Shown here in pieces: positions 3,697 through 32,065 of a stretch of 38,717 nt of DNA. A model generated the notes under the pieces. The model made no database searches, was not told the DNA's origin, and worked only from the letters and a program-made list of their open reading frames with translations. Source of the DNA: a virus; IMG/VR virus record IMGVR_UViG_3300027746_000002, positions 1 to 38,717 of that record. One strand, written 5' to 3'. Numbering within the stretch: the stretch's first letter is position 1; each line of letters starts with the position of its first letter. Position numbers and translations under genes: made by a program.

Positions 3697-5541
3697 ATGG
3701 CACAAATACAAAAAGGAACTACATTTTCAACGGGCGATCAAGTTAATGCCGCAAACCTTAATGCGCATGTTGATAGTGCCATACTATTGCCTGGAGCTAT
3801 TTCGGATCAAGCATCTGATGTTGCTGCACCAACGGATACAATTCTAATTAATAAAGCTGGTTCATTAAAGCAGGCAACACTTGCTAGTGTATTTGATTCT
3901 GCGGGTTTCTTAAAAGCTGATGGCACTATTCCCCTTACAACGGGAGCGCAGCTAGTGCTTGGTTCGACGCAGCAATTGAGTGCGTTGCAGGCTACTTCTA
4001 AGGGCTACGTTGATGCAACCTTTTTGCCTATCACAGGTGGCACATTGACGGGCAATTTAACATTAACAACTGCCGCTGTAGTTACCTTATCAAAAGATCC
4101 AGTAAGTGCGTTGCAAGCTACAACAAAGCAATACGTTGACTACAGATCTGCATCTTCAACAATAGTTGCTTTACCATCAAGAATTCGCGCAGATGGATAC
4201 AGCGCAATGATAGTACGAGGATCTAATTTTTTGTATTCTTGGGGATATTGTCGTGATGGTGGATTAGGTGCATGGCAGAATAATTCGGCTCAAACTGGAG
4301 TGTTTTCTGCATTTAATGTTTCAATTCCATCTGGAGTTACAATTGTTGATGTAATTAGATGTGTTGGTAATTCAATTTGTTTACTATCTAATGGATGGGT
4401 TTATACAACTGGAAATAATGTAAGTGGACAATTGGGCCATGGAGATACAACTAATAGATATCAATTTACTAGAATTGAATATTTTGTAACTAACAGTATT
4501 ACAATATCTAGTATATATTTATCTTCGGCTAGGACTAATGAAACATTCGGAGTTTGTGCTGCAATTGCATCTAACGGTGATTTATATACATGGGGATATG
4601 GGGCAGTAGGCCAACTTGGAAATAATAGTACTGCAAATAAATTAACTCCAACAAAAATTACTACAGTTTCTAATGTAGTAAATGTTGTTCTTACTGATGC
4701 ATTTACTGGAGCAGCATTTGCATTAACAAATACTGGAGTTTTGTATGCAACTGGCTATAATTATACGGGTCAACTTGGGCTTGGTAACACAACTCAAAGA
4801 AACTCATTTATTCAAACATTAACTGGAGTATCTAAAATTGACGCCACTTCATCTGGTTTATCCCCTAATTTTAATGGAACATCTATTGTGCTCAAGACTG
4901 ATGGAACTGTAGTTGCCGCCGGAACTGGAGCAGAAGGCGCTCTTGGAAATGGATCTACAGCTAACAGTTCAACATGGGTAACTGTTTCTTCATTATCATC
5001 TATTAAAGATATAGGAATAACAGGAGGACTTGCTGCAACCGCATATGCAGTCTCTAATAGCAATCAACTTTATACTTGGGGATACAATGCATATGGTACA
5101 GTTGGTGATGGAACAACAACAAATAGAACAACTCCATTTCAGGTAAATACATGGGTTGATAATGTATCGCAACCACCTCCTTTTATTGGTTCTAATTTTT
5201 CTGTATTTTTAAGTTCAGGATCTTATGGTTATGCTACAATTTGCGTTATTGATTCAAATGGATTAATTTATACAGTTGGCTATAATAGCTATTACACATT
5301 TGGATCAAATGTAAACAATGTAAGATTTACAAAAATTCCAATTACATTGCCTAATCCAAGTGAAAAACCATCTTCTCTTTGCATGTTTGGAATTGATGGT
5401 GCTCAGTTTATGACTATATTAACCAATATGGGATTTGTATATTGCCTTGGTGATAATACAACCTATGGCGCATGTCAACTTGGCTATAGTGCTGGGGCAC
5501 CTGCATATATTGGCACACCTAAATTTCAACCAATTGCATAA
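3697..5541 (+). CDS. Tail fibre with RCC1-like beta-propeller
   Basis: The 614-residue protein has a virion-attachment-like N-terminus (residues 1-60), then two fibre-shaft repeats, each ending in LSALQAT-K-YVD (about residues 75-150) and containing LPITGGTLTGNLTL. From about residue 165 to the end come at least six RCC1-type blades, marked by recurrent LYTWGYN, GQLGNNST and GQLGHGDTTNR-like motifs. RCC1 propellers are protein- or chromatin-interaction modules in eukaryotes and also occur in bacterial surface proteins; here a receptor-binding head is the natural inference. The propeller portion (about 4200-5500) is visibly more AT-rich, with more A/T-ending codons, than the genes around it, which suggests separate acquisition. 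A weak GAGGA precedes the start. Confidence 0.85.
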   Translation: MAQIQKGTTFSTGDQVNAANLNAHVDSAILLPGAISDQASDVAAPTDTILINKAGSLKQATLASVFDSAGFLKADGTIPLTTGAQLVLGSTQQLSALQATSKGYVDATFLPITGGTLTGNLTLTTAAVVTLSKDPVSALQATTKQYVDYRSASSTIVALPSRIRADGYSAMIVRGSNFLYSWGYCRDGGLGAWQNNSAQTGVFSAFNVSIPSGVTIVDVIRCVGNSICLLSNGWVYTTGNNVSGQLGHGDTTNRYQFTRIEYFVTNSITISSIYLSSARTNETFGVCAAIASNGDLYTWGYGAVGQLGNNSTANKLTPTKITTVSNVVNVVLTDAFTGAAFALTNTGVLYATGYNYTGQLGLGNTTQRNSFIQTLTGVSKIDATSSGLSPNFNGTSIVLKTDGTVVAAGTGAEGALGNGSTANSSTWVTVSSLSSIKDIGITGGLAATAYAVSNSNQLYTWGYNAYGTVGDGTTTNRTTPFQVNTWVDNVSQPPPFIGSNFSVFLSSGSYGYATICVIDSNGLIYTVGYNSYYTFGSNVNNVRFTKIPITLPNPSEKPSSLCMFGIDGAQFMTILTNMGFVYCLGDNTTYGACQLGYSAGAPAYIGTPKFQPIA

Positions 5542-8473: not shown

Positions 8474-9580
8474 ATGGCAAACGAAACAAATGTCTTTGGC
8501 CTTAAAGACCCAAATAATATACAGTTAGCCAAGGATCTTGCTAGCTATAGAGAGGGAGTTGTTGGCTCGTATGCTGCGGCAAAAGCTAATCAAGCTGCAT
8601 CTGCTGCTGCACAAAGACAACAAGCAGAAGACGATTTACGGAAACAGTATGAGTCTATTCCAGATCAAAACAAAATACTTCCAGACAAAAGTGGGCTTTA
8701 TCCTGCTATAGACCACGATTTTAAAGCTGCTGCAAAACGAATTGAGTTTAATCATCAAAGGTCGATGATTGACCCTAATGACACTGCCGCTGACACTCGG
8801 TTAAAAATGCTCAACGAAGCAATTCCAGTAAGAGAACGTCAGGACTTTATTGATACCGATTTATATAAAAATGTTGTTCAAGAAAATACGTCTAATAAAG
8901 AACGTGTCACGATGGCAAACAACTTGCACGATCAGTTAATTAAAATGAAAGCTGCACTTGATAAAGGTGATATGCTTCTTGCGGCAAACATTGGTAAGAC
9001 AGGGGTAATGAAAAGCACCAATTCCATGCAAGGGAAAGATGCCGTTAGTCCAAGTGAGCAAAGCACTCGATACCAAGACTTGCTTAGTTTTCCAGACATT
9101 TTAATTCAAAATCAACAAGGGCAAAGCGTATCCAAGCAACTTTTGTCTAGGATGGCTATGGCGTTTGGAAAAGATCAAAAAGAGTTTAATAGCCTATCAG
9201 AAAAGTTTAATGGGTTAATAGCGGGCGCAATTGAAGCTGATCCTGCTAATTTTTATAAAACAGTTTATGAACTGCATAACGCCGCAGTAGATACGGCAAC
9301 TCGAAATGTAGAACGAGTTCGCGATATGAGTAGCCCGTATCATGCTAAATTACTTCAAGCTAATCCCCCGCTAAGGCTACCAGCAGAAGCTGCACTAGGA
9401 ACGCAAATGGTAAATACTGGCACTCAGTATGCCCAACAAGCACCGCTTAGTATTCCAGTTAGTACTGGTGCAGCAAGCACAACATCGGGCACAGTTACCA
9501 CTGGAACTTCTCAAGCAGCACCTTCTGGTGTAGATCCGGCTTTGCTTGATGTTATGAGGAAAAAAGGCTTAATTAAATAA
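8474..9580 (+). CDS. Internal virion protein
   Basis: The 368-residue product is almost entirely helical by appearance, with Ala/Gln/Asp-rich segments (AAAKANQAASAAAQRQQAED near residue 40) and long amphipathic helices; the C-terminus (about residues 320-355) is a Thr/Ser/Ala/Gly-rich linker ending DPALLDVMRKKGLIK. It starts after a short A-rich leader (AAAACAT-ATG) with no Shine-Dalgarno sequence. It is inferred to be a scaffold-like component of the head-internal ejection apparatus from its position before the largest such protein. Confidence 0.6.
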   Translation: MANETNVFGLKDPNNIQLAKDLASYREGVVGSYAAAKANQAASAAAQRQQAEDDLRKQYESIPDQNKILPDKSGLYPAIDHDFKAAAKRIEFNHQRSMIDPNDTAADTRLKMLNEAIPVRERQDFIDTDLYKNVVQENTSNKERVTMANNLHDQLIKMKAALDKGDMLLAANIGKTGVMKSTNSMQGKDAVSPSEQSTRYQDLLSFPDILIQNQQGQSVSKQLLSRMAMAFGKDQKEFNSLSEKFNGLIAGAIEADPANFYKTVYELHNAAVDTATRNVERVRDMSSPYHAKLLQANPPLRLPAEAALGTQMVNTGTQYAQQAPLSIPVSTGAASTTSGTVTTGTSQAAPSGVDPALLDVMRKKGLIK

Positions 9581-9581
9581 T

Positions 9582-12500
9582 ATGCCTGATTACTCTACTA
9601 TGTCTGATGCAGAGCTTCAAGCTTTGTACAACCAACAGACGGGTCAAGCTACTCCTGCGCCGGCTCCTGTTTCTGCCCAGCAGCCTCAAAGTCAGGATTA
9701 CAGCAAGATGTCTGACGCTCAGTTGCAAGAGCTATTCAGACAACAACAGGCTGCTCAACAAAGTGTTAAAGAAGATCCGCGCAATCTTCCTCAGCCAATT
9801 TCATCTGATGACAAAAAAAACGTAGCTGCAATTCTAAGCAACATAAAGCCAAGTAGCCCAGATGATGGCATGACTTTATCTATGCCTAAGATGAGTCAGG
9901 ATTTTGTTCGTGACTTTAGATCTATTACAGGAGTTCATCCCGAAACGCTTAGGATTGATAAAGATACAAGCGACGAAAGATTTGCTACTTCTGCTAAAGA
10001 AGCATTCAATGCTGCCGTTGCAGATGGGTTAATTAAACCTGATTTTTCACAGGGTGAACTTAAGGAAAAGTTTCAAAACTTTGAGACAAAGTGGAACGAA
10101 TATAAGACAGAAATGGAAAGCAGTATGCTTGGTGCTGCTGCGAGGGGAGCAAAAACTTCATTCCTCCCTACAGTTGCTGCTGTAGGTGGAGCTTTGCTAG
10201 GTTCTCCCTCTGTAGTTGGTTCTATAGGTTTAGGGGCCGCTGCTGGAATGGGTGCTGCCGTTGCTCAAGAACAACTTTTTCCATCAACCAGTGAGGAGAA
10301 AGCACAACGTGCTTTTGACCAAAGTAAAACTTCTACAAGAAATGCTCGGTTAGCTGGAGAAATTCTTCCCCAGTTTGCAACAGGAACTGTAAGACCAACG
10401 CTAAACGCAAAGTTGTTTAGCTTAGCTCCTGATGCGCTTAAACAATTTATTGGCACAACTGTCTTAACAGCGGGGCTTCCTGCTGCAATTGACTACGTAC
10501 AGGGCAATAAGTTTGATCCTGAGAGATTTGCTTGGGGCGTTGCAAATGCTGCGTTTGTTACTCCTACAAGATTTGGTCAAAAGTTATTTGATAAGTCTGC
10601 AAGAACAGAAATGCTTGCTACCGAAGCAAGGAACAAGATTTTTGCTGATGAACGCTTTCTTGGCATCAGTGGGCCAAACAGAGCAGATGCCATTGCTCGT
10701 CTCAGGAATTACGGGGAAGCTTCTATAAATGGCATTCAGCCCATGATGGGTGAGTACTTGGAAAACCAAGCCATTATCTCTTTTCAAAAAGCACTTCAGA
10801 ACTCTAAAGAAGGTGCGCGAATGAGACAAAGGCAATTTGATAATCAAGTTGCTGCTGCTGCGGCTAACGAAAGGTTAGCGGGTTATGAAACGCTTGTTGA
10901 TGATAGGGCTGCTAGAACTTTTTTTGAACAGCAACACGCTGAATTAAATGCTCAAGCTCAACACGCAAGACAACAGTTAATTGCTCAAGGGAATGCAGAT
11001 GCTGAAGTTATTATAGCACAAGCTCACGCTCAGTCAGAGGCTTTAAATTTAGCCCGTGAACAAGGAATTATTACTGCTGAAAATGCAGTAACATCTGCTA
11101 ATAGCGTTTTTTCTCAAGCTGTTGAGGATATTCATGCCTCAAGAGGAACTAGCACTACCGCATCTACAAGAGCAGTCAACTTGCTTGATGCGTTAAAAGA
11201 TGCTGCCTATGTACCTGTAAGACAAGCATATGCCGCAATACCTAAAAATGCTATAACGGATTACCAAAACACGTATAGAGCAGCAAAAAAAGCAGCATCT
11301 AAAACAAGCCTTGGGAGTTTAAAAAGTGTTCCTGCTGTAATTTCAGACATTCTTCAGCAGTATGCTCCTAGAATCGGCAGAGGTGGGAGATCCATCCTTC
11401 CAAGGGTGCGTATTTCGGTAATGATGAAAGACCTTGAAACAATTACTGAAGAAATTTCAAAAGCTGTTCTGGCAAAAGAAAATTCTACAGCAAGACTGCT
11501 TGGTCAAATCAAAACAGGAATTGAACGCGATCTATCTGTTGCTGAAGCTAGTTATGAAGGTATTAGAATAGCAAAAGATTTATACTACCAATACGCACAG
11601 AAGTACGTAAACGGCACAGTTGGTAATATGCTACACGCATCTCAGTCTCTTGATAAAGACTTGAGATTGTCTGAGATGCTTTATTCTAAAAGCTCTGAGC
11701 ATCAAACTCTGAATGGCCCGCAACAGTTACTTGCTGCTTTGAACGGATCTGGTGAAGACATGGTTCTTCAACAGTTGTTAAACGACATGGCGCAGCAAGG
11801 TGGAGGCACAAGTGCATCACTGGAAAAATGGATCAATAGTGACAAGATTTCTAGGGTGCTTGCCACGTTCCCAATGCGTAACCAACTTGAAGCTGTCATT
11901 AACAGGGTTCGTGATGCTGAGGTAATGGCGGGCAGGGCTAGGGCTGAACTTGATGCTAGACGAGCAGTTCCAATTGAACGTCCAAATAGGGCTGAACTTG
12001 ATCGGGCACAGCAAGTAAGACAACAAGCTAGAGATACCGCAGAGATTCAATACAGAGCAGAACGTGAGCGTTTACAGAATGAAGCATTCACGGCTTTTGT
12101 TGGCGCAGACTGTCGAACTGCAATTCGGGATATTATGTCCTCCAGAGATCCTGTTGGCGTTGCAACTCAAATGATGCAAGCTGCTGCTGGTGATGCTTCT
12201 GGGGAAGCTGTTGTAGGGCTTCAAAATGCCATGAGGCAGCATTACAAAGAGGCAGTTGCCAGCACTAAAGCACTCACTTCTGGGTTGAATATGGATGATC
12301 CTCTTCAACTGAGCCAGTTACAGGTTATTAGCGGAAAGATCAATGCGGCATTGGTGGATAATGGCCCACTCCGATCTGTAATGAATGTTGTCTTACCTCC
12401 TAGTGAACTTCAGACACTCGATGTCTTAAGACGACAGGTGCAGTACATTACCAATCCATTTCGTAACGTAAATGGCGATTCTGTCACTGCCTCAATGCGG

Positions 12501-14710: not shown

Positions 14711-15046
14711 ATGAGCGATAGATACCGAGCAATAACAGAGTTAGCAAGAATGCGGAGGATAACCCCAGAGGAGTGGGTTATGATGATTAACGAACTTGAC
14801 GATAGCATCCGAGAACAGGTTGCTAACATCATTTGGTGGGACTTCTTTGGCACAAAGACCCTTGGGAATAAGTGGCATCATCTCGACCACATTATCCAAA
14901 AAAGAATGCCAGTTGTTGCTGATGCTCAAGACTTGTACGTTGCGCTGCTCAAGTGCAGCTATGACCCAAGAATTGCGTCAACAAGGTTGAATTTGAGGTC
15001 TAAGGGATGCAAACCCCGTCACGCTAAGAAGGGAGCTTCCAAATGA
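14711..15046 (+). CDS. Hypothetical replication-block protein
   Basis: The 111-residue product has an acidic, helical N-terminal half (TPEEWVMMINELDDSIREQVANIIWWDFF), a central WHHLDHII, and a basic Lys/Arg-rich tail (KGCKPRHAKKGASK) suited to nucleic-acid contact. It starts after the AT-rich leader ACAAAATT with no Shine-Dalgarno sequence and overlaps the next gene by four bases. No family recognised. Confidence 0.6.
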   Translation: MSDRYRAITELARMRRITPEEWVMMINELDDSIREQVANIIWWDFFGTKTLGNKWHHLDHIIQKRMPVVADAQDLYVALLKCSYDPRIASTRLNLRSKGCKPRHAKKGASK

Positions 15047-15693
15047 ACATTTCCATCAAAGTTACCTATGCCTCAGGCACTGTCACCGAAATACTCATTC
15101 CTTGGGAGGAAAAGGCATTGACTGCTGTCTCCTATCTAGGAGATGAGGACAAGGGGGTAGAAACCCCATCCAAGACGCAGGAAGAGCTAGATGCCGAGTA
15201 CTCGATGGACTACAAATTGCAGCAAGACGACTTGAGGCCAAGCGGCAATCGGTACAAGTCAGTTGCTGATCTTGCAGATAGTTTAAATATTGCTAGGGAA
15301 AAGGAGGAGGGGAAGGGGATTGGTAGGATAGGGGGTGTGGGGGAAAGGAAGGAAAGGGGTGGGGAGGAGGAAAAACCCGACCAAGAAACTGACTTGTCAC
15401 AAGTCACCTTCGATACCCAGACCACTTGTTATCAAGTGCCACTCAAGACCCTCAATGACTTCATCGCCGCTTACGGACTTGAAGCGGTGAAACGTGAGTT
15501 CCCGCTTGCCAAGGCTTGGTTGTCTGCAAATCCAAAGAAACGCAAGACGCATCAAGGGACAGGTAGGTTCCTGAATGCTTGGTTAAGCAGGGCACAACAA
15601 CCTGTGCATTTTATCGACTACAAAGCTGCCATGAAAAAACCAGAGACTGGCAGTCTGCTTAGTCCATCAACCGACAGTCAGGAGGGTTGGTAA
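15043..15693 (+). CDS. Replication initiator / helicase-loader-like protein (lambda O-like layout)
   Basis: The 216-residue product has an N-terminal domain (residues 1-85), a very unusual Gly/Glu/Lys/Arg linker (about 86-112) encoded by a G-rich tract, and a C-terminal domain with AKAWLSANPKKRKTHQGTGR and FLNAWLSRAQ. That last block is a hallmark of phage replication proteins placed next to DnaB or DnaC genes. It stands directly before the helicase gene, the usual place for an initiator/loader. In lambda the origin lies within gene O; here the linker DNA (15295-15438) has origin-like features. Translation may benefit from GGGAG upstream. Confidence 0.65.
   Translation: MNISIKVTYASGTVTEILIPWEEKALTAVSYLGDEDKGVETPSKTQEELDAEYSMDYKLQQDDLRPSGNRYKSVADLADSLNIAREKEEGKGIGRIGGVGERKERGGEEEKPDQETDLSQVTFDTQTTCYQVPLKTLNDFIAAYGLEAVKREFPLAKAWLSANPKKRKTHQGTGRFLNAWLSRAQQPVHFIDYKAAMKKPETGSLLSPSTDSQEGW
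15295..15438 (+). other. Candidate origin inside the O-like gene: G-rich tract plus two dyads
   Basis: From 15294 (a C) to 15376 there is no cytosine on this strand; the tract carries several runs of four or five G, spaced so that a G-quadruplex or triplex is possible. Directly after it come two dyads: TGACTTG-TCA-CAAGTCA (15390-15406) and CACTTG-TTAT-CAAGTG (15423-15438). Position within a replication-initiator gene is as in lambdoid phages. Origin function is an inference. Confidence 0.45.
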
Positions 15694-16343
15694 TGCAAAT
15701 CCCACTTGCGACTGAATCAGAACGTAGCATTGCTAGCGTTGCGCTTAATAATCCTACTACGTTTCTAAATATACTTGATGAAAAGCGTTTTAAGATATCA
15801 GACATATTTGATGCATTGAGCAGAGCAATCGTTGAGGTTGTCTTAGATTTAACCTCTCGATCTGTTGCTGTAGATGTTAGAATTGTATTTGAAAGTATAC
15901 GTGAACGTATACCGACAACTCAATTTTCTGAATTAACGCTTATTTATACCTTGATGCCAATTGAGGGGGCATTACCAAACCTGCTTGATATTGTTAAAGC
16001 TACTGCGAAGCGTAGAGCTTTGTTAATGGTCATGCAGGAGGGGCTGGCGAAGATTGATACGTATGACGTTAAGACACCTGACCTAGTGAACCAAGTGCAG
16101 ATGAAGGTTGATGCAATTCAGAACGAGTTGAATCCTCCTGCTATCATGGATACTAAGGCCATCATCATGGAACGTCTGCACATTTATGAAACAGGCGGCG
16201 ACCAGTCTCAGCGGATTCAGACAGGGTTTGATAAATTAGATAACCTTACCCCGATACGACTTGGTGATTTTGTAGTTATCGGCGGTGAAACAAAAAGCGG
16301 TAAAACAATGTTAGCGTTGAATATTATAGCACATCTATTATGA
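15693..16343 (+). CDS. dnaB (N-terminal fragment): Replicative helicase DnaB, N-terminal part (ends after Walker A helix)
   Basis: The 216-residue product contains the DnaB N-terminal helical domain (SERSIASVALNNPTTF near the start), the linker, and the beginning of the RecA-like motor, including Walker A GGETKSGKT (about residues 197-205) and the following helix MLALNIIAHLL, where a TGA stops it. The rest of the motor (Walker B, H3, H4) is encoded 2.15 kb downstream at 18497-19096. The stop overlaps the next gene's ATG (ATGA), so the end is integrated in the operon, not a random break. The start is ATG 15693, preceded by a GGAGG at 7 bases, one of the few good ribosome sites here; TTG 15687 is an alternative. 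The fragment alone cannot hydrolyse ATP. Confidence 0.88.
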   Translation: MQIPLATESERSIASVALNNPTTFLNILDEKRFKISDIFDALSRAIVEVVLDLTSRSVAVDVRIVFESIRERIPTTQFSELTLIYTLMPIEGALPNLLDIVKATAKRRALLMVMQEGLAKIDTYDVKTPDLVNQVQMKVDAIQNELNPPAIMDTKAIIMERLHIYETGGDQSQRIQTGFDKLDNLTPIRLGDFVVIGGETKSGKTMLALNIIAHLL

Positions 16344-16663
16344 CAAAAATTGTAAACTTAACCCCACACACTATAAATGTGGCGGGGCATACACCAATCA
16401 ATGCCTCTGGTGAAATTGCCAGAGTCAACTTTCAGATCATCCAGACAGGTGAGATTGAAGGGATACCAGTCATGGAAACCTTAGCTCACGGCATCAGTGG
16501 GCTTCCATCTGAAGCACAGGGTACAGTGTACATTGTACCAACAATGGTAAGACAATATTTCCCAAAGCGTCGTGACTTGTTGTCACCAGCAAAGCTACTG
16601 CGAAATAGTATTGGAGCAGTGGTTGGATGCGTTGGATTTGAGATTAACCCAGAACTAAAATAA
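16340..16663 (+). CDS. Conserved hypothetical protein in the helicase gap
   Basis: The 107-residue product begins MTKIVNLTPHTINVAGHTPI and continues with SGEIARV and VYIVPTMVRQYFPKRRDL. The NLTPH-N-start, SG-ARV and P-..V....P pattern recurs in small proteins of phages and bacteria whose function is unknown to me. It is predicted to be all-beta with a short helix. Its ATG overlaps the stop of the dnaB N-part, and its first codons contain ACAAAAA, which also precedes the dnaB C-part. Confidence 0.65.
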   Translation: MTKIVNLTPHTINVAGHTPINASGEIARVNFQIIQTGEIEGIPVMETLAHGISGLPSEAQGTVYIVPTMVRQYFPKRRDLLSPAKLLRNSIGAVVGCVGFEINPELK

Positions 16664-16665
16664 AT

Positions 16666-17001
16666 ATGAACGACGAAATAGAAGAACAAGAAGAACAAGA
16701 AGAACAAGAAGAACAAGAAGAAGAATTAACCATCGAGCAGAAATTACGCATCGAGTTAGCATGGCGAACATTGGAACGAGATCGAGCATTGGCTGCTATT
16801 AAATATCCACCACCATGTCTTCAATGTCAGGCTTATGAACGTGAGATTTCTGTCTTAAATAATCTTAATTTAAAATTAGCCGTAAGGAATGATAAGCTTG
16901 AAAGTATGCGTGAAGCATTAAGACAAGCAAGCCTTGGTGAGTTGTGTGGAATTGAATGCGCTGACCCTGTAGATTTGACGGGATTGGAGGAACGGGAATG
17001 A
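16666..17001 (+). CDS. Coiled-coil protein with N-terminal EEQ repeat
   Basis: The 111-residue product starts MNDEI followed by four EEQ triplets, then a charged alpha-helical region (LTIEQKLRIELAWRTLERDRALAAI), a CLQC pair, and a leucine-heptad coil (ISVLNNLNLKLAVRNDKLESMREAL). Function unknown. The start has an AT-only leader (AATAAAT-ATG); the end overlaps the next gene by four bases. The N-terminal acid stretch is encoded by a 9-bp tandem repeat whose copy number may vary. Confidence 0.6.
   Translation: MNDEIEEQEEQEEQEEQEEELTIEQKLRIELAWRTLERDRALAAIKYPPPCLQCQAYEREISVLNNLNLKLAVRNDKLESMREALRQASLGELCGIECADPVDLTGLEERE
16681..16725 (+). repeat. 9-bp in-frame tandem repeat
   Basis: GAAGAACAA occurs four times in tandem (16681-16716), followed by GAAGAAGAA. 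Each unit encodes Glu-Glu-Gln, so slippage would change length without breaking the frame. Confidence 0.95.
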
Positions 17002-17351
17002 CCACAAATGAATTTGCCCAGAGCTTACGAGTTAGACACGAGCGCGAAGCCGCCGACAGGCTGGAGGAGTTGCAGTTTCTTGTAAAGCGCAAAGAAATTC
17101 ATTCTAAAGATTGGGAGGATCAGGCTAGGCAGGCCAGAAAAGAACGCGACGAAGCCCGCGCTGAGGTGGAGCAGCTAAAGGCTGAACTACAGTGTAAGCA
17201 AACCCGTCCAGAACCCTCACGGCTGGAAATTGCTGCTTGGCTCAAAGCGGGGTGGTTCGCAAATCGCGATGCTGATTTCAACGCAGCAGATCATGGGTGG
17301 TGGATCGAACAGGCAGACAAACTCATTGCAGCAGCAAGGGAGGTAAAGTAA
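16998..17351 (+). CDS. Coiled-coil phage protein
   Basis: The 117-residue product is mostly a Glu/Arg/Lys/Ala coiled coil (residues about 10-75) followed by a C-terminal block SRLEIAAWLKAGWFANRDAD and ending WWIEQADKLIAAAREVK. The last block, a small helical unit with A-W/M-A and AD-LI-AA, is common at the end of short phage proteins of unknown role. It has a reasonable ribosome site (GGAGG eight bases before ATG). Confidence 0.6.
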   Translation: MTTNEFAQSLRVRHEREAADRLEELQFLVKRKEIHSKDWEDQARQARKERDEARAEVEQLKAELQCKQTRPEPSRLEIAAWLKAGWFANRDADFNAADHGWWIEQADKLIAAAREVK

Positions 17352-17357
17352 GTGAAC

Positions 17358-17501
17358 ATGAAAACTCTTAATGACGCTTGCATGGTTATTTTGTTGGCAG
17401 GATCAGCAATTATGGTTGTTGCTACGACAACATTTTCAGTGATATTTGTAATAGATTATTATTTCATAACAAAAAAGAATCATTGGTTTAAGAAAAAATA
17501 A
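17358..17501 (+). CDS. Small single-pass membrane protein
   Basis: A 47-codon frame fills the gap between two genes. After a short polar N-terminus there is a long hydrophobic segment (about residues 8-33, with MVILLAGSAIMVV and FSVIFVI) and then a basic tail (TKKNHWFKKK), a positive-inside arrangement. An in-frame GTG at 17352 directly after the previous stop would add two residues. Its neighbours are tightly packed and in the same direction, so it is probably real; role unknown. Confidence 0.55.
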   Translation: MKTLNDACMVILLAGSAIMVVATTTFSVIFVIDYYFITKKNHWFKKK

Positions 17502-17503
17502 AT

Positions 17504-18268
17504 ATGAAGCCGTACATGACACAAGACCTGCCAATGCAGGAATACCGAGCAGCCCAAGGACTTAGCAAGCATCAGTTCGACAATTTTCTTGTAGCTCCTG
17601 CTTTTTACAAGTTTAAGCAGACCAAAGAATGGAAGCCGTCCCGTGAGATGATCCTTGGAACCTGCATCCATTCCCTCGCCATTGAGGATAGGATTGATTA
17701 TGCGGTTGGGCCAAGCGTAGACAAGCGCACCAAAGCAGGGAAAGAAGAGTGGCAAATTTTCTGCGAAGAGAACATGGGTAAAGAGATTGTCACCGCCGAG
17801 GAAGAGGCAAGGATCACAAACAGTAGCTACAAAGCCAGACAGCTTTTGGGTAGTTGCAAGATTCAGCACATTGAAAGCTCTATGTACTGGGAACGGGGTG
17901 GCGTTCTCTGCAAGGGACGACCTGATATTATCGGCGAGTTCAACGGCAGACCTGCAATCGTTGACCTTAAGACAACGTCTGATTTCAACAAGTTTGATCA
18001 GAAGTTCTGGTCATTCAACTATGACCTGCAAGCGGCATGGTATCAACGTGGGTTGATGGAGATCATAGGCGCACAGTGCGACTTTTGGTTTCTGGTTGTT
18101 GATACTGAGGAACCGCATTTTGCCCAGTGGGTTCTTTTATCCAGCGAGGCTATCGAAAAAGCGAATGCCAGAATTGATGATGGCTTGGAGCAGTATCTTG
18201 ACTGTGTAGAAAACAATCATTGGCCTGAACCTCCACTCACCAGAGTCTTGATGAGCAAATACGCATGA
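17504..18268 (+). CDS. RecE-like PD-(D/E)XK exonuclease
   Basis: The 254-residue protein matches the exonuclease VIII/DUF3799-type core: GTCIHSLAIE (His about 56), KGRPDII (Asp about 141), and AIVDLKTTSDF (Asp154-x-Lys156), followed by a helix with YDLQAAWYQRG, the conserved Gln/Tyr motif of this nuclease superfamily. The family degrades double-stranded DNA 5' to 3' to give single strands for annealing. No RecT-like annealase was found; the OB-fold protein at 13229 could serve. The gene lies in the gap of the split helicase and ends with an ATGA overlap. Confidence 0.8.
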   Translation: MKPYMTQDLPMQEYRAAQGLSKHQFDNFLVAPAFYKFKQTKEWKPSREMILGTCIHSLAIEDRIDYAVGPSVDKRTKAGKEEWQIFCEENMGKEIVTAEEEARITNSSYKARQLLGSCKIQHIESSMYWERGGVLCKGRPDIIGEFNGRPAIVDLKTTSDFNKFDQKFWSFNYDLQAAWYQRGLMEIIGAQCDFWFLVVDTEEPHFAQWVLLSSEAIEKANARIDDGLEQYLDCVENNHWPEPPLTRVLMSKYA

Positions 18269-18600
18269 AGGTATTACTCAGAAAAACAGAGGTGATTGAT
18301 GATTCACTTCAGTTGCCTCGTCCAAAGGTAACTCAGGAGGTTCTCTACATTGGGAGTGAACAGGAGTGCAGGGAGGTGCTTGATAGCATTGCTCTACTCC
18401 CGCACAATCAGAGTTCAGAACAAATCGAAGTCACTCTGTACATAACCAAGTGGCAGGGACAGCAAACACATAACAGTCAAACATTTACAAAAAACAATGG
18501 AAAAAGGAATATTGATAGTGTCGTTGGAAATGCCAGCAAGCCAGATCATCGACAGGCTCGTCGCAAAGATAGGAAACGTCCCGCTAAGAAGTCTGTCTGA
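18265..18600 (+). CDS. Hypothetical protein running into the dnaB C-part
   Basis: The 111-residue product has an N-terminal alpha/beta part (residues 1-65: LLRKTEVIDD, VLYIGSEQECREVLDSIALL, IEVTLYITKW). From about residue 78 the DNA also encodes the start of the helicase C-part in another frame; the protein over this stretch is a disordered-looking basic tail (RRKDRKRPAKK). This suggests that an original stop was lost and the frame runs on into the helicase by chance. Family unknown. Confidence 0.5.
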   Translation: MKVLLRKTEVIDDSLQLPRPKVTQEVLYIGSEQECREVLDSIALLPHNQSSEQIEVTLYITKWQGQQTHNSQTFTKNNGKRNIDSVVGNASKPDHRQARRKDRKRPAKKSV

Positions 18601-19096
18601 AGGAGTTAAGACAGAAGCGGAGATGCGCGGAGTGCAGAAGGCACTCACTAAACTAAGTCAAAGCAAACTTGTAGTGCGTGATGATCTGTATGACATTTCA
18701 AGCATCTGTGCTACAGCCAGAGCAATGGCAAAGAGTCAGACGGGATTGTCCCTTTTGTTCGTGGATTACCTGCAATTGGTGAGGTGCGATCTTGGGCGCA
18801 ATTCAACTCGTGAACAAGAGGTAGCTGAGGTGAGCCGCACGCTTCGTTTACTGAGCCTTGAGCTAAACTGTCTGGTGATTTCGATCACTCAGCTAAATGA
18901 ACAGGGCAAGTCTCGTGAGAGTCGGTCAATTCAACAGGACGCAACGGCCATCATCACGATCAAGATGGAAGAGGGGAAAGAGAACTCCGAGAACAGAACT
19001 ATTGTGATACCTTACCAGCGAAATGGCCCTTGTGGAGTCCATACAACGCTAAGATTTAACGGACGCACGGCATCATTTTTAAACCACCATGAGTGA
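18497..19096 (+). CDS. dnaB (C-terminal fragment): Replicative helicase DnaB, C-terminal part (Walker B, H3, H4)
   Basis: The 199-residue product starts exactly where the 15693 fragment ends in the DnaB fold: GILIVSLEMPASQI (motif H1a), Walker B LLFVDYLQL (residues 86-94), the H3 helix-strand SRTLRLLSLELNCLVISITQLN (about 113-134), and H4 RSIQQDATAI (about 143-152), then the QRNGP-G block near the end. All motor motifs expected after Walker A are present and intact, so selection seems to maintain it. The ATG lies within the previous gene. In-frame codons just upstream (HLQKT) also look helicase-like, but a TAA upstream stops any link. It must pair with the N-part to work. Confidence 0.88.
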   Translation: MEKGILIVSLEMPASQIIDRLVAKIGNVPLRSLSEGVKTEAEMRGVQKALTKLSQSKLVVRDDLYDISSICATARAMAKSQTGLSLLFVDYLQLVRCDLGRNSTREQEVAEVSRTLRLLSLELNCLVISITQLNEQGKSRESRSIQQDATAIITIKMEEGKENSENRTIVIPYQRNGPCGVHTTLRFNGRTASFLNHHE

Positions 19097-19649
19097 AAAA
19101 CCCAAAAAACAAAAGCGGTACAAATCACCTGAGACAAAAGCAAGGCAACTTGCCGGCTTGTCTGGGGTCAGGATCGAGGATCACGTTGAAGGATGTGGGC
19201 ACATTGAAAAGATCAATGGCAAAGGTGATTGGGCTTCAGTGTCAGAAGAGCAACGAAAACAAATTTTAGATTTGTACTGTGCAGGGAACACGATCACGGC
19301 GATTGCCGAGAAACTCAACCTCAGTAAGACAGTGGTTGGTGATGTTAAACTTCGTGCGCTTGATACGGACACTCAGTTTGCGAATGCCATGTTCAAGGTA
19401 AACATTCGCAGGAAGCTTCAGAATGTCGCTGACTTATCTGCCGACAAAGTGGTGGAGTTAATTCCAGAGATGAACGCACGGGATGCAACGCTTGCTCTAT
19501 CCAAGAGCATCGAAGCGTTGAGCCAAATGGAAGCGGTAAAAATGCCAGAGGTACAGGTGAACCATTTGCACCTTCACGCTTCAGACATTCAAAGGCAATT
19601 CCTAGAATACATGGGAGAATCGGAAGAACAAAAAACAATAGACATATGA
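19089..19649 (+). CDS. HTH DNA-binding protein, candidate small terminase
   Basis: The 186-residue product has a basic N-terminus (KPKKQKRYKSPETKARQL), an HTH of the resolvase/TerS style (QILDLYCAGNTITAIAEKLN then LSKTVVGDVKL, about residues 58-90), and a helical second half (NIRRKLQNVADLSADKVVELI) that could oligomerise. This HTH-plus-helical-core layout resembles phage small terminases, and none was found next to terL. Its location in the replication block would also suit a regulator. The HTH is well supported; the terminase role is not. Confidence 0.55.
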   Translation: MSEKPKKQKRYKSPETKARQLAGLSGVRIEDHVEGCGHIEKINGKGDWASVSEEQRKQILDLYCAGNTITAIAEKLNLSKTVVGDVKLRALDTDTQFANAMFKVNIRRKLQNVADLSADKVVELIPEMNARDATLALSKSIEALSQMEAVKMPEVQVNHLHLHASDIQRQFLEYMGESEEQKTIDI

Positions 19650-21811: not shown

Positions 21812-22588
21812 CTACTCGTTAAGCTTAGCAAGCTGCTTCTGAATCCATTTAACAGGCTGAGTGATTAGCTCATCCGTGTAGTGTGCTTCTCCTAAGACAA
21901 TATCTGAGGGGCTAGCGTTGACTAGTTTGCGAGCGTCTTGCTGAGAAGACCATCCCCCACAGAAGCCTGTCTTAGCGTAGCCAAAACTCATCGCTAAGGT
22001 TCGATCAAACGAGCACGCGCTTAAACAGTGTGCGATGCGTGCCATATCTACAGGAGCAGTGGGCATACGCACCATAAGACAGGTTGAACCATCATGCTTG
22101 GCATTCCCATCAAGCTTCGTATACGTCCAAAGCTCTATTGGCCTGCCTTGCTTCACAAGTTGCATCACTAAGGCCAATGCGACTATGCCACGCTTGAGAA
22201 GAATGTCCGCTGAGATTCCTGCACTAGACGTAGTACAGACAAAGACCCTGACAGGAGCCTTTTCGTTAGGTCGTACTATCCTCGCTCTCATACATTCAGG
22301 GTCACCAGACAGAAAGGCGGGAATGTCTGGGTATGAGCCTGCCACTTGATACGTCCAGTCGGGGAACTCGTTGTCTAGCTCAGCTTCTACTTGCGAAAGC
22401 AAAGCCTCAGCTTTTGGGATTAGGCTGAGATTGCCATACTTCGTACGCTCAAGCGTCTGAGCGTATGACTCCCCCACCCAACCCGCATCATGTCGCTTGG
22501 AAGGAGCAGAGACTGCTAAAACGTCAGCAAGGAAAGCGTCTGGGGAGTCCCAGACGTACCGAAAAGAATCACGCTTATAGTGTTCCAT
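21812..22588 (-). CDS. AAA+ partner protein, DUF7192-like
   Basis: The 258-residue product has DAGWVGESYAQTLERTKYGN near residue 35, then a central RVFVCTTSSAGISADILLKRG and LVMQLVKQGRPIELWTYTKL, and ends with GEAHYTDELITQPVKWIQKQL. The W-G-S/T-xx-A-xxxxG start and the SS-GIS...L.RG...AL...L...G core match a phage family I recall as DUF7192, usually beside a MoxR/CbbQ-like ATPase. The fold appears von Willebrand-like, but the DxSxS metal site is not intact. The natural inference is a partner of the upstream ATPase. The label DUF7192 is from memory. Confidence 0.62.
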   Translation of the reverse strand: MEHYKRDSFRYVWDSPDAFLADVLAVSAPSKRHDAGWVGESYAQTLERTKYGNLSLIPKAEALLSQVEAELDNEFPDWTYQVAGSYPDIPAFLSGDPECMRARIVRPNEKAPVRVFVCTTSSAGISADILLKRGIVALALVMQLVKQGRPIELWTYTKLDGNAKHDGSTCLMVRMPTAPVDMARIAHCLSACSFDRTLAMSFGYAKTGFCGGWSSQQDARKLVNASPSDIVLGEAHYTDELITQPVKWIQKQLAKLNE

Positions 22589-22617
22589 GATCTTTGTCTT
22601 AATGTCTGAATGTCTGA

Positions 22618-23808
22618 CTACTTGCTGACCCTATCCCAGACAGCTTGGTCTAAGCCTTTCCTGAGCCTGCTTTCAATCGCCTCTTCCCAAGTGAGGCCAG
22701 CATGAAGCAAGGCACATCCCCCGATTGAAGCGCGAGGCGACACTACGTGCTTCACGCTACCTTCTGAGGCGATGCGTGAACGCACCTTCTGCACTAGGTC
22801 CACCCATTGGTTGCCGAGCGTCTTATCCTCGATTCTACCTAGTGCTAAGGTGCGTTCCAGCAATTCATCTACGTCCCAACGTATCATGCAAAACCTATCG
22901 ACAAAGGCGGCGTCTGGCTTGTATCGCCCATTATACTCAGCGGTTGCGCCTTGCCCAATCGTGTTTGCGCCAGCGATACAAACGAAGTTTGGATGCTTAC
23001 GCACCGCCCCGTCTGGAAAGTCCACGATTCCATTGGCAAGCGCAGCATTGAAGGCTAGCAAAGCCTGAGGCAAAGAGGCGTCAACTTCGTCAAATAGATA
23101 TACTCCCCCTTCCGTCCATGCCTTGCGAAAAGGGCGTGAAACGATTCTCCCCTGAGCGTCGATGAATCCGAGTAGCTTGTGCTCAGAGTCTAGAGCACCA
23201 TTGAAGTGAAACTCAAGACCTAGGACAGTAGCAACCTGCTCCGCTGCAGTCGTCTTCCCAGTCCCTGCAGGGCCAACAAGCCAAACGTTGTCACCTGAGC
23301 TCACAGCTTTCAAAAGCTTCGCGAACGTCTTATGCGCCAATGCTTGTTTGTGCTCCCCTGAGTGCCGATCCTTGTACTCAACTCTGACAGGCTGAGCCTG
23401 CGAGTGCAGCTTGATTAGTTCGATCACTTTAGCCTCATCAAGCTCAGCTTTTCCCCCTTTGGCTTTGTTTAAGATGCTTAGAATCGTCATAGCATCATCT
23501 ACATCTACGCCTTCATTATTGTTGCTACGTTTAGCCTTAGGCTTTTCTTCAGCCTCTGCGCGCGCCTCTTGAGCTTGTACCGCTTGGGAGTTTGGCAGCT
23601 TCCCTGCAAGTATGTCTGAGAGAAGAGCATCCGATAGGTCTAGCCATATGGCATTCAGCTCAGACATTTGAAGAGAGTCTACTGTCACGCTTGCAACTCC
23701 CTTGAGCTTAAGCCATTGGCGACCAGCTTTGCGAGCGTCTAAGCCTCTAAGAGGCTCAAGACGAGTATAGGTGATATCGTTCTGCACGTGTACGTTGTTT
23801 GTGTTCAT
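22618..23808 (-). CDS. MoxR/CbbQ-like AAA+ ATPase
   Basis: The 396-residue protein has an N-terminal region of unknown fold (1-130) with a Lys/Glu/Ala-rich linker, then a AAA_5-type motor: Walker A GPAGTGKT (179-186), Walker B VYLFDE (236-241), sensor 1 in VCIAGANTIGQGATAEYNGR (Asn about 282), and an Arg-finger region AAFVDRF. MoxR/CbbQ ATPases remodel protein complexes together with a von Willebrand-type partner; the next gene is such a candidate. It is the first gene after a sigma70-type promoter. The ATPase is certain, its target unknown. Confidence 0.88.
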   Translation of the reverse strand: MNTNNVHVQNDITYTRLEPLRGLDARKAGRQWLKLKGVASVTVDSLQMSELNAIWLDLSDALLSDILAGKLPNSQAVQAQEARAEAEEKPKAKRSNNNEGVDVDDAMTILSILNKAKGGKAELDEAKVIELIKLHSQAQPVRVEYKDRHSGEHKQALAHKTFAKLLKAVSSGDNVWLVGPAGTGKTTAAEQVATVLGLEFHFNGALDSEHKLLGFIDAQGRIVSRPFRKAWTEGGVYLFDEVDASLPQALLAFNAALANGIVDFPDGAVRKHPNFVCIAGANTIGQGATAEYNGRYKPDAAFVDRFCMIRWDVDELLERTLALGRIEDKTLGNQWVDLVQKVRSRIASEGSVKHVVSPRASIGGCALLHAGLTWEEAIESRLRKGLDQAVWDRVSK

Positions 23809-31990: not shown

Positions 31991-32065
31991 CGCGGAGTAG
32001 CTCAGTGGTAGATCGCTTGGCTCATAATCAAGATGTCGCTGGTTCGATTCCAGCCTCCGCAACCA
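31991..32065 (+). tRNA. tRNA with CAU anticodon, initiator-like C1:A72
   Basis: The 75 bases fold as a full cloverleaf with encoded CCA. Acceptor: CGCGGAG with CTCCGCA, giving six pairs and a C1:A72 mismatch, the feature that lets transformylase recognise bacterial initiator tRNA. Anticodon arm CTTGG-CTCATAA-TCAAG (anticodon CAU); T arm GCTGG-TTCGATT-CCAGC. The D stem (GCTC/GATC) has a C:U mismatch at 11:24. The three consecutive G:C pairs of the usual initiator anticodon stem are absent, and the D arm otherwise resembles an elongator. It may be an initiator, elongator Met or an Ile-lysidine tRNA; C1:A72 favours the first. Confidence 0.92.

Follow-up and report, generated by a model that had tools for sequence, protein, structure and literature searches.

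The window, which is the whole 38,717-nucleotide stretch of viral DNA analyzed here (IMG/VR record IMGVR_UViG_3300027746_000002), contains two separate genes on the plus strand that together correspond to a replicative DnaB helicase. The first, dnaB-N (15693 to 16343; 216 amino acids), encodes the DnaB N-terminal domain, the linker, the first strand of the motor, Walker A (GETKSGKT, within GGETKSGKT), and the next helix. The second, dnaB-C (18497 to 19096; 199 amino acids), encodes the remaining RecA-like motor, with the SLEM glutamate, the Walker B motif VDY, the H3 glutamine, and the H4 motif QRNGP. An earlier note, made by reading the sequence, had proposed a DnaB split just after Walker A, with the N domain and Walker A in one open reading frame (ORF) and Walker B, H3, and H4 intact in the other; both ORFs were found where it had placed them, and profile searches agreed with their assignment. 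dnaB-N matched PHROG 19 (DnaB-like replicative helicase; E value, 6e-19), the Pfam N-domain family DnaB (E value, 7e-4, below the Pfam cut-off), and, collinear with the N-domain match and likewise below the cut-off, positions 2 to 42 of Pfam DnaB_C. dnaB-C matched DnaB_C positions 49 to 254 with an E value of 1.6e-34.

Little is lost at the break. In 2vye, a solved DnaB of 454 residues, positions 11 to 225 were aligned by residues 4 to 213 of dnaB-N and positions 234 to 427 by residues 4 to 182 of dnaB-C, so that at most about 2 loop residues are unaccounted for. Alignment with 15 intact DnaB proteins placed the break in the loop that connects the post-Walker A helix to the strand terminating in the catalytic SLEM glutamate, with no conserved residue missing. 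The earlier reading of a break in a loop of the RecA fold thus stands, and its statement that nothing is missing holds within normal loop-length variation. The DnaB features are all present, in order, and shared out over two chains; both domains lay in separate ORFs, and not in a single polypeptide, in all members examined, which makes this a variant and not a standard member of the DnaB family.

The ORF directly upstream of dnaB-N (15043 to 15693, plus strand) keeps its position among relatives and had no match in Pfam or PHROG searches; its position makes it a candidate replication initiator or helicase loader. PHROG 23150, a profile of 217 positions that ends just after the DnaB Walker A, was matched by window positions 15969 to 16325 and perhaps represents another split DnaB lineage, but it was rejected as a further N-half family since the profile also matched 10 of 14 control bacterial genomes.

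Genes within the gap and their expression

Six ORFs, all on the plus strand, lie between the two halves, among them a RecE-like nuclease gene as the earlier note had described; one of the six (17352 to 17501, short and hydrophobic) is an uncertain gene. Three of the ORFs had relatives in the 51 distinct gaps first compared: c0 (16340 to 16663), which encodes a protein beginning MTKIVNLTP and is always the first gap gene; the RecE/exonuclease VIII-like PD-(D/E)XK nuclease gene (17504 to 18268), which is always within the gap; and a small conserved gene with about 81 conserved residues (18265 to 18600), located between the nuclease gene and dnaB-C. The other three were accessory or uncertain in that comparison and comprised, besides the hydrophobic ORF, an ORF with an E/Q-rich start (16666 to 17001) common to the window and its close relative L001 and a coiled-coil-like ORF (16998 to 17351) with a relative in contig L041. 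In the gaps compared, the core order was c0, nuclease gene, small gene, and accessory genes were placed between these core genes or directly before dnaB-C. A short tandem GAAGAACAA-like repeat (16681 to 16725) codes for the acidic E/Q run of the first accessory gene, whose cluster consisted of the window and L001 only.

Across 76 distinct versions, the gap ranged in length from 1,308 to 3,785 bases (median, 2,073), and its accessory content was varied. L001, whose two halves are identical in protein to those of the window, has a gap of 3,785 bases, versus 2,153 in the window, with different contents. The gap of one contig (L017) contains an HNH_3 homing-type endonuclease gene beside a C5 cytosine DNA methyltransferase gene (8674 to 9093 and 9101 to 10321), and that of another (L035, 7920 to 8654) contains a gene for a Mom-family DNA modification protein (Pfam E value, 1e-34) directly before dnaB-C. 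Mom-cluster ORFs occupy the same spot in other gaps, indicating that the gap gathers DNA-modification cargo. A deoxynucleotide monophosphate kinase gene, absent from the window gap, is found in the gaps of L003 (6989 to 7480), L007 (6932 to 7438), and some other members, and a gap ORF of L040 (1779 to 2183) has a weak C-terminal match, just below the Pfam cut-off, to the Thoeris anti-defence protein Tad2.

The junctions of the gap are tightly packed. The start of c0 overlaps the dnaB-N stop in 74 of the 76 versions, the overlap being 3 to 91 bases long (ATGA in the window), and dnaB-C starts with ATG in 74 versions, the other 2 having an ATG slightly upstream. In 37 of the 76, the stop of the preceding gene overlaps the dnaB-C start as ATGA, and in most of the remainder the preceding gene extends further into dnaB-C; the small gap gene ends exactly at the dnaB-C ATG in many relatives and overlaps the dnaB-C start by about 100 nucleotides in the window. 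An obvious Shine-Dalgarno sequence precedes dnaB-C in only 12 of the 76 versions, which points to translational coupling as the likely route of its expression. The two helicase genes probably share one operon transcript.

Conservation of the break among relatives

IMG/VR was scanned with each half and with profiles; a single scan gave as many as about 120 relatives, and the top 80 were retained. All loci that extended far enough to include both halves were split at the same place. The search for DnaB halves with the same gap that the earlier note had suggested recovered the 76 distinct gap versions described above, and the identical break was found in every relative examined, comprising well over 80 contigs of IMG/VR as well as one from a metagenome-assembled genome (MAG). 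The latter (L169) was the one match in the scan of bacterial genomes. The members of the clade are uncultured phages only, mostly sampled from lakes, and among them identity to the window fell to 37% for the N half and 63% for the C half. A scan with the gap nuclease, in which an unsplit sister was sought, reached deeper members (L247 to L249), which were split too; its other matches were only distant nuclease homologues, none accompanied by a closely related DnaB. No close relative with a joined gene appeared in the IMG/VR, INPHARED, and bacterial-genome scans, and no contig long enough for both halves was found with just one. In INPHARED, the N half of the window had no relative at an E value of 1e-3, and that of another member (L118) matched weak DnaB pieces only, at 23 to 45% identity; intact DnaB proteins were reached only at approximately 28 to 36% identity in the C half.

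The earlier note had named frameshifts in either half, or another complete helicase gene in the genome, as grounds for abandoning its reading. Frameshifts were seen in neither half of the relatives. Each of 15 contigs of 38 to 44 kb had exactly two DnaB_C matches, covering positions 2 to about 45 to 60 and about 38 to 47 to 255, and no second DnaB was found in these near-genome-length contigs, which may be incomplete and in which a non-DnaB helicase may escape the profiles.

Strong purifying selection acts on both halves, as had been supposed from the window. Pairwise dN/dS, where changes occur, was about 0.03 to 0.11 for the N half and about 0.02 to 0.10 for the C half, and the two halves of the window and L001 together differed by 27 synonymous changes and no nonsynonymous change. 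The Walker A glycine, lysine, and threonine, the SLEM glutamate, the Walker B aspartate, the H3 glutamine, and the H4 arginine were invariant in 25 to 26 aligned members. The strand/P-loop/helix piece was among the most conserved parts of the N half, its mean majority-residue share being 0.91 versus 0.61 for the N domain, and it serves no obvious purpose in the absence of the C half. Distances for the N and C halves were correlated (Mantel r, 0.90; none of 9,999 permutations reached this value), an agreement to be expected of any two linked genes. Judging from these sequences, the halves are co-inherited. In the DnaB tree, the split sequences formed one side of a branch with an SH-aLRT value of 100 and a long stem; their exact sister is uncertain because the intact neighbors sit on long branches.

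Predicted structures of the two chains

AlphaFold2 models of each half as a single chain matched DnaB chains in the PDB, with best E values of 1.3e-5 for dnaB-N and 7.3e-14 for dnaB-C, and the dnaB-N model had a target TM score of 0.80 against the N-domain of Mycobacterium tuberculosis DnaB (2r5u). In the lone dnaB-N model, the N domain was confident (pLDDT, approximately 84 to 95), the P-loop part had a pLDDT of 52 to 68, and the first strand was not formed, as would be expected if it needed the C half. In P-loop ATPases of the DnaB class, the first strand lies inside the sheet, which implies that the two chains would have to fold together and could not dock as separate domains.

Interpretation and comparison with known systems

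The locus is best explained as a two-gene DnaB-family replicative helicase of a phage, and we consider it likely, from the sequences and models, that its chains cofold into each ring subunit; the motor is very probably made of two chains per subunit. dnaB-N would supply the N-terminal ring domain, the linker, the central first strand, the Walker A loop, and the next helix, and dnaB-C would supply the other strands, the catalytic glutamate, Walker B, the sensor glutamine, and the arginine region. By fragment complementation, the strand of the N chain would enter the sheet of the C chain, giving a ring of six subunits and twelve chains in which three chains would contribute to every ATP site: an N chain its Walker A, a C chain its glutamate and Walker B, and the C chain of the neighbor its arginine finger. 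The halves would be translated separately, probably coupled to their neighbors through overlapping stops and starts. The break presumably arose before the known members of the clade diverged, and the gap would later have gained and lost accessory genes. Complex formation, stoichiometry, and unwinding are inferred. Against a two-chain helicase, a host DnaB could replicate the phage, linkage of any gene pair would produce the agreement between N and C distances, and a further helicase may lie outside the contigs.

As to origin, a homing endonuclease that split the gene and was later lost would be compatible with a two-chain helicase, and we regard it as unlikely. In other phages, homing endonuclease insertions account for the split state of nrdA (as in Aeh1) and gene 60 and perhaps also of gene 43 (PMC2988022), and the HNH_3 gene in the L017 gap is of the homing type. 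However, an HNH gene was found in only 1 of the 76 gaps, and there it was away from the junction; the core gap genes are the nuclease and two small genes and not a homing endonuclease, and the gap also gathers Mom, methyltransferase, and other cargo.

It is quite improbable that the halves act apart, the N half as a decoy or adaptor for host DnaB, primase, or loader and the C half as a separate ATPase or DNA-binding protein. DnaB N-domains do bind primase and loaders, and the isolated N domain has a good predicted fold, but the catalytic motifs are divided, with Walker A confined to the N half and the glutamate and Walker B to the C half, and none of them varies among the aligned members. It is hard to see what a strand lacking its sheet would do by itself, and sufficiently long contigs always carried both halves.

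Joining of the halves as RNA or protein, through splicing of an intron in cis or in trans or through a split intein, would yield one ordinary DnaB chain and is very unlikely, even though nothing is lost when the parts are put together, split inteins are found in some fractured genes (Dassa 2009, as cited in PMC12350094), and phages can carry group II introns (PMC12350094). An Rfam search of positions 15600 to 19200 gave no RNA family match, introns included, at the gathering cut-off or at an E value of 1, consistent with the earlier view that group I and II intron features are lacking. Nor were there intein blocks, as the earlier note had also remarked: N-half tails extend 0 to 26 amino acids beyond the helix, the C half begins directly at the strand, and nearly all members lack any N-terminal addition to it, leaving no room for intein halves. 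Moreover, the sequence preceding the C half shows no conservation, the start ATG of the C halves stays in place and usually overlaps the preceding gene, and the same translated core genes are always in the gap. Recent disruption, a pseudogene, or an assembly error, suggested by the frequency with which insertions split phage genes, is refuted by the comparative data, since the split recurs across many samples, in well over 80 contigs, with strong purifying selection, and the same break in 76 distinct arrangements excludes chance and misassembly.

The two-chain helicase shares domains, catalytic residues, and their order with the DnaB family (Pfam DnaB and DnaB_C, PHROG 19, Escherichia coli and Geobacillus DnaB, P1 Ban, and phage D3 orf74), and the models of its halves match DnaB structures; it differs in being two polypeptides, cut between Walker A and the catalytic glutamate. 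Replication enzymes encoded by genes in pieces are known to work in phages, Aeh1 NrdA and the phage 25 gene 43 product by experiment and T4 topoisomerase by subunit structure (PMC2988022). In Aeh1 NrdA, the gene 43 DNA polymerase of phages 25 and 44RR, and T4 topoisomerase, fragments of a replication enzyme reassemble and function (PMC2988022), and here, too, both fragments are conserved and under selection; the present case concerns another enzyme, with an old, clade-wide break that falls within the core of a P-loop NTPase and has a multigene block in it. Conserved split versions of a minimal DNA polymerase III alpha and of RNA polymerase beta/beta' have been proposed in jumbo phages, likewise as separate conserved proteins predicted to reconstitute one enzyme (PMC7824862); those are polymerases, whereas the present protein belongs to a hexameric-motor family. 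Fractured split-intein genes (Dassa 2009, as cited in PMC12350094) also consist of two parts with DNA between, but no intein parts or protein splicing are predicted here. Judged by its large terminase (30% identity over 93%), the annotated genome closest to the window is that of phage C75C1 (OQ984151; about 39 kb), which likewise carries genes for DnaB and an exonuclease; there, unlike in the window, DnaB is unbroken and lies away from the exonuclease, which suggests, weakly because C75C1 is distant, that DnaB was joined ancestrally. Neither a naturally split DnaB without an intein nor a DnaB cut between Walker A and the catalytic glutamate without an intein was found in the openly accessible literature that was searched. 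Papers on "split DnaB" were rejected as natural precedents, one for its use of an engineered DnaB intein and the others by title and abstract. A two-chain DnaB thus looks undescribed for the family.

Few motors are as constrained as ring helicases. We lean, by a small margin over even odds, toward the view that the whole clade depends on an obligate two-chain DnaB, with twelve chains per ring and the central strand and P-loop supplied in trans, that its assembly could be a control point, and that the gap is a long-lived accessory or counter-defence slot. If the two-chain helicase is real, a RecA-type motor tolerates a central strand from another chain, and a natural split system is available for studies of ring assembly and for switchable helicases. 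For annotation pipelines, phage DnaB genes called "partial" may be real.

Elsewhere in the window, a 614-amino-acid protein of the structural region (3697 to 5541) has repeats that, by eye, resemble RCC1 propeller blades; a MoxR-like AAA ATPase is paired with a DUF7192 protein on the minus strand (21812 to 23808); and a tRNA-Met gene (31991 to 32065) lies downstream of an SU10-type major capsid gene.
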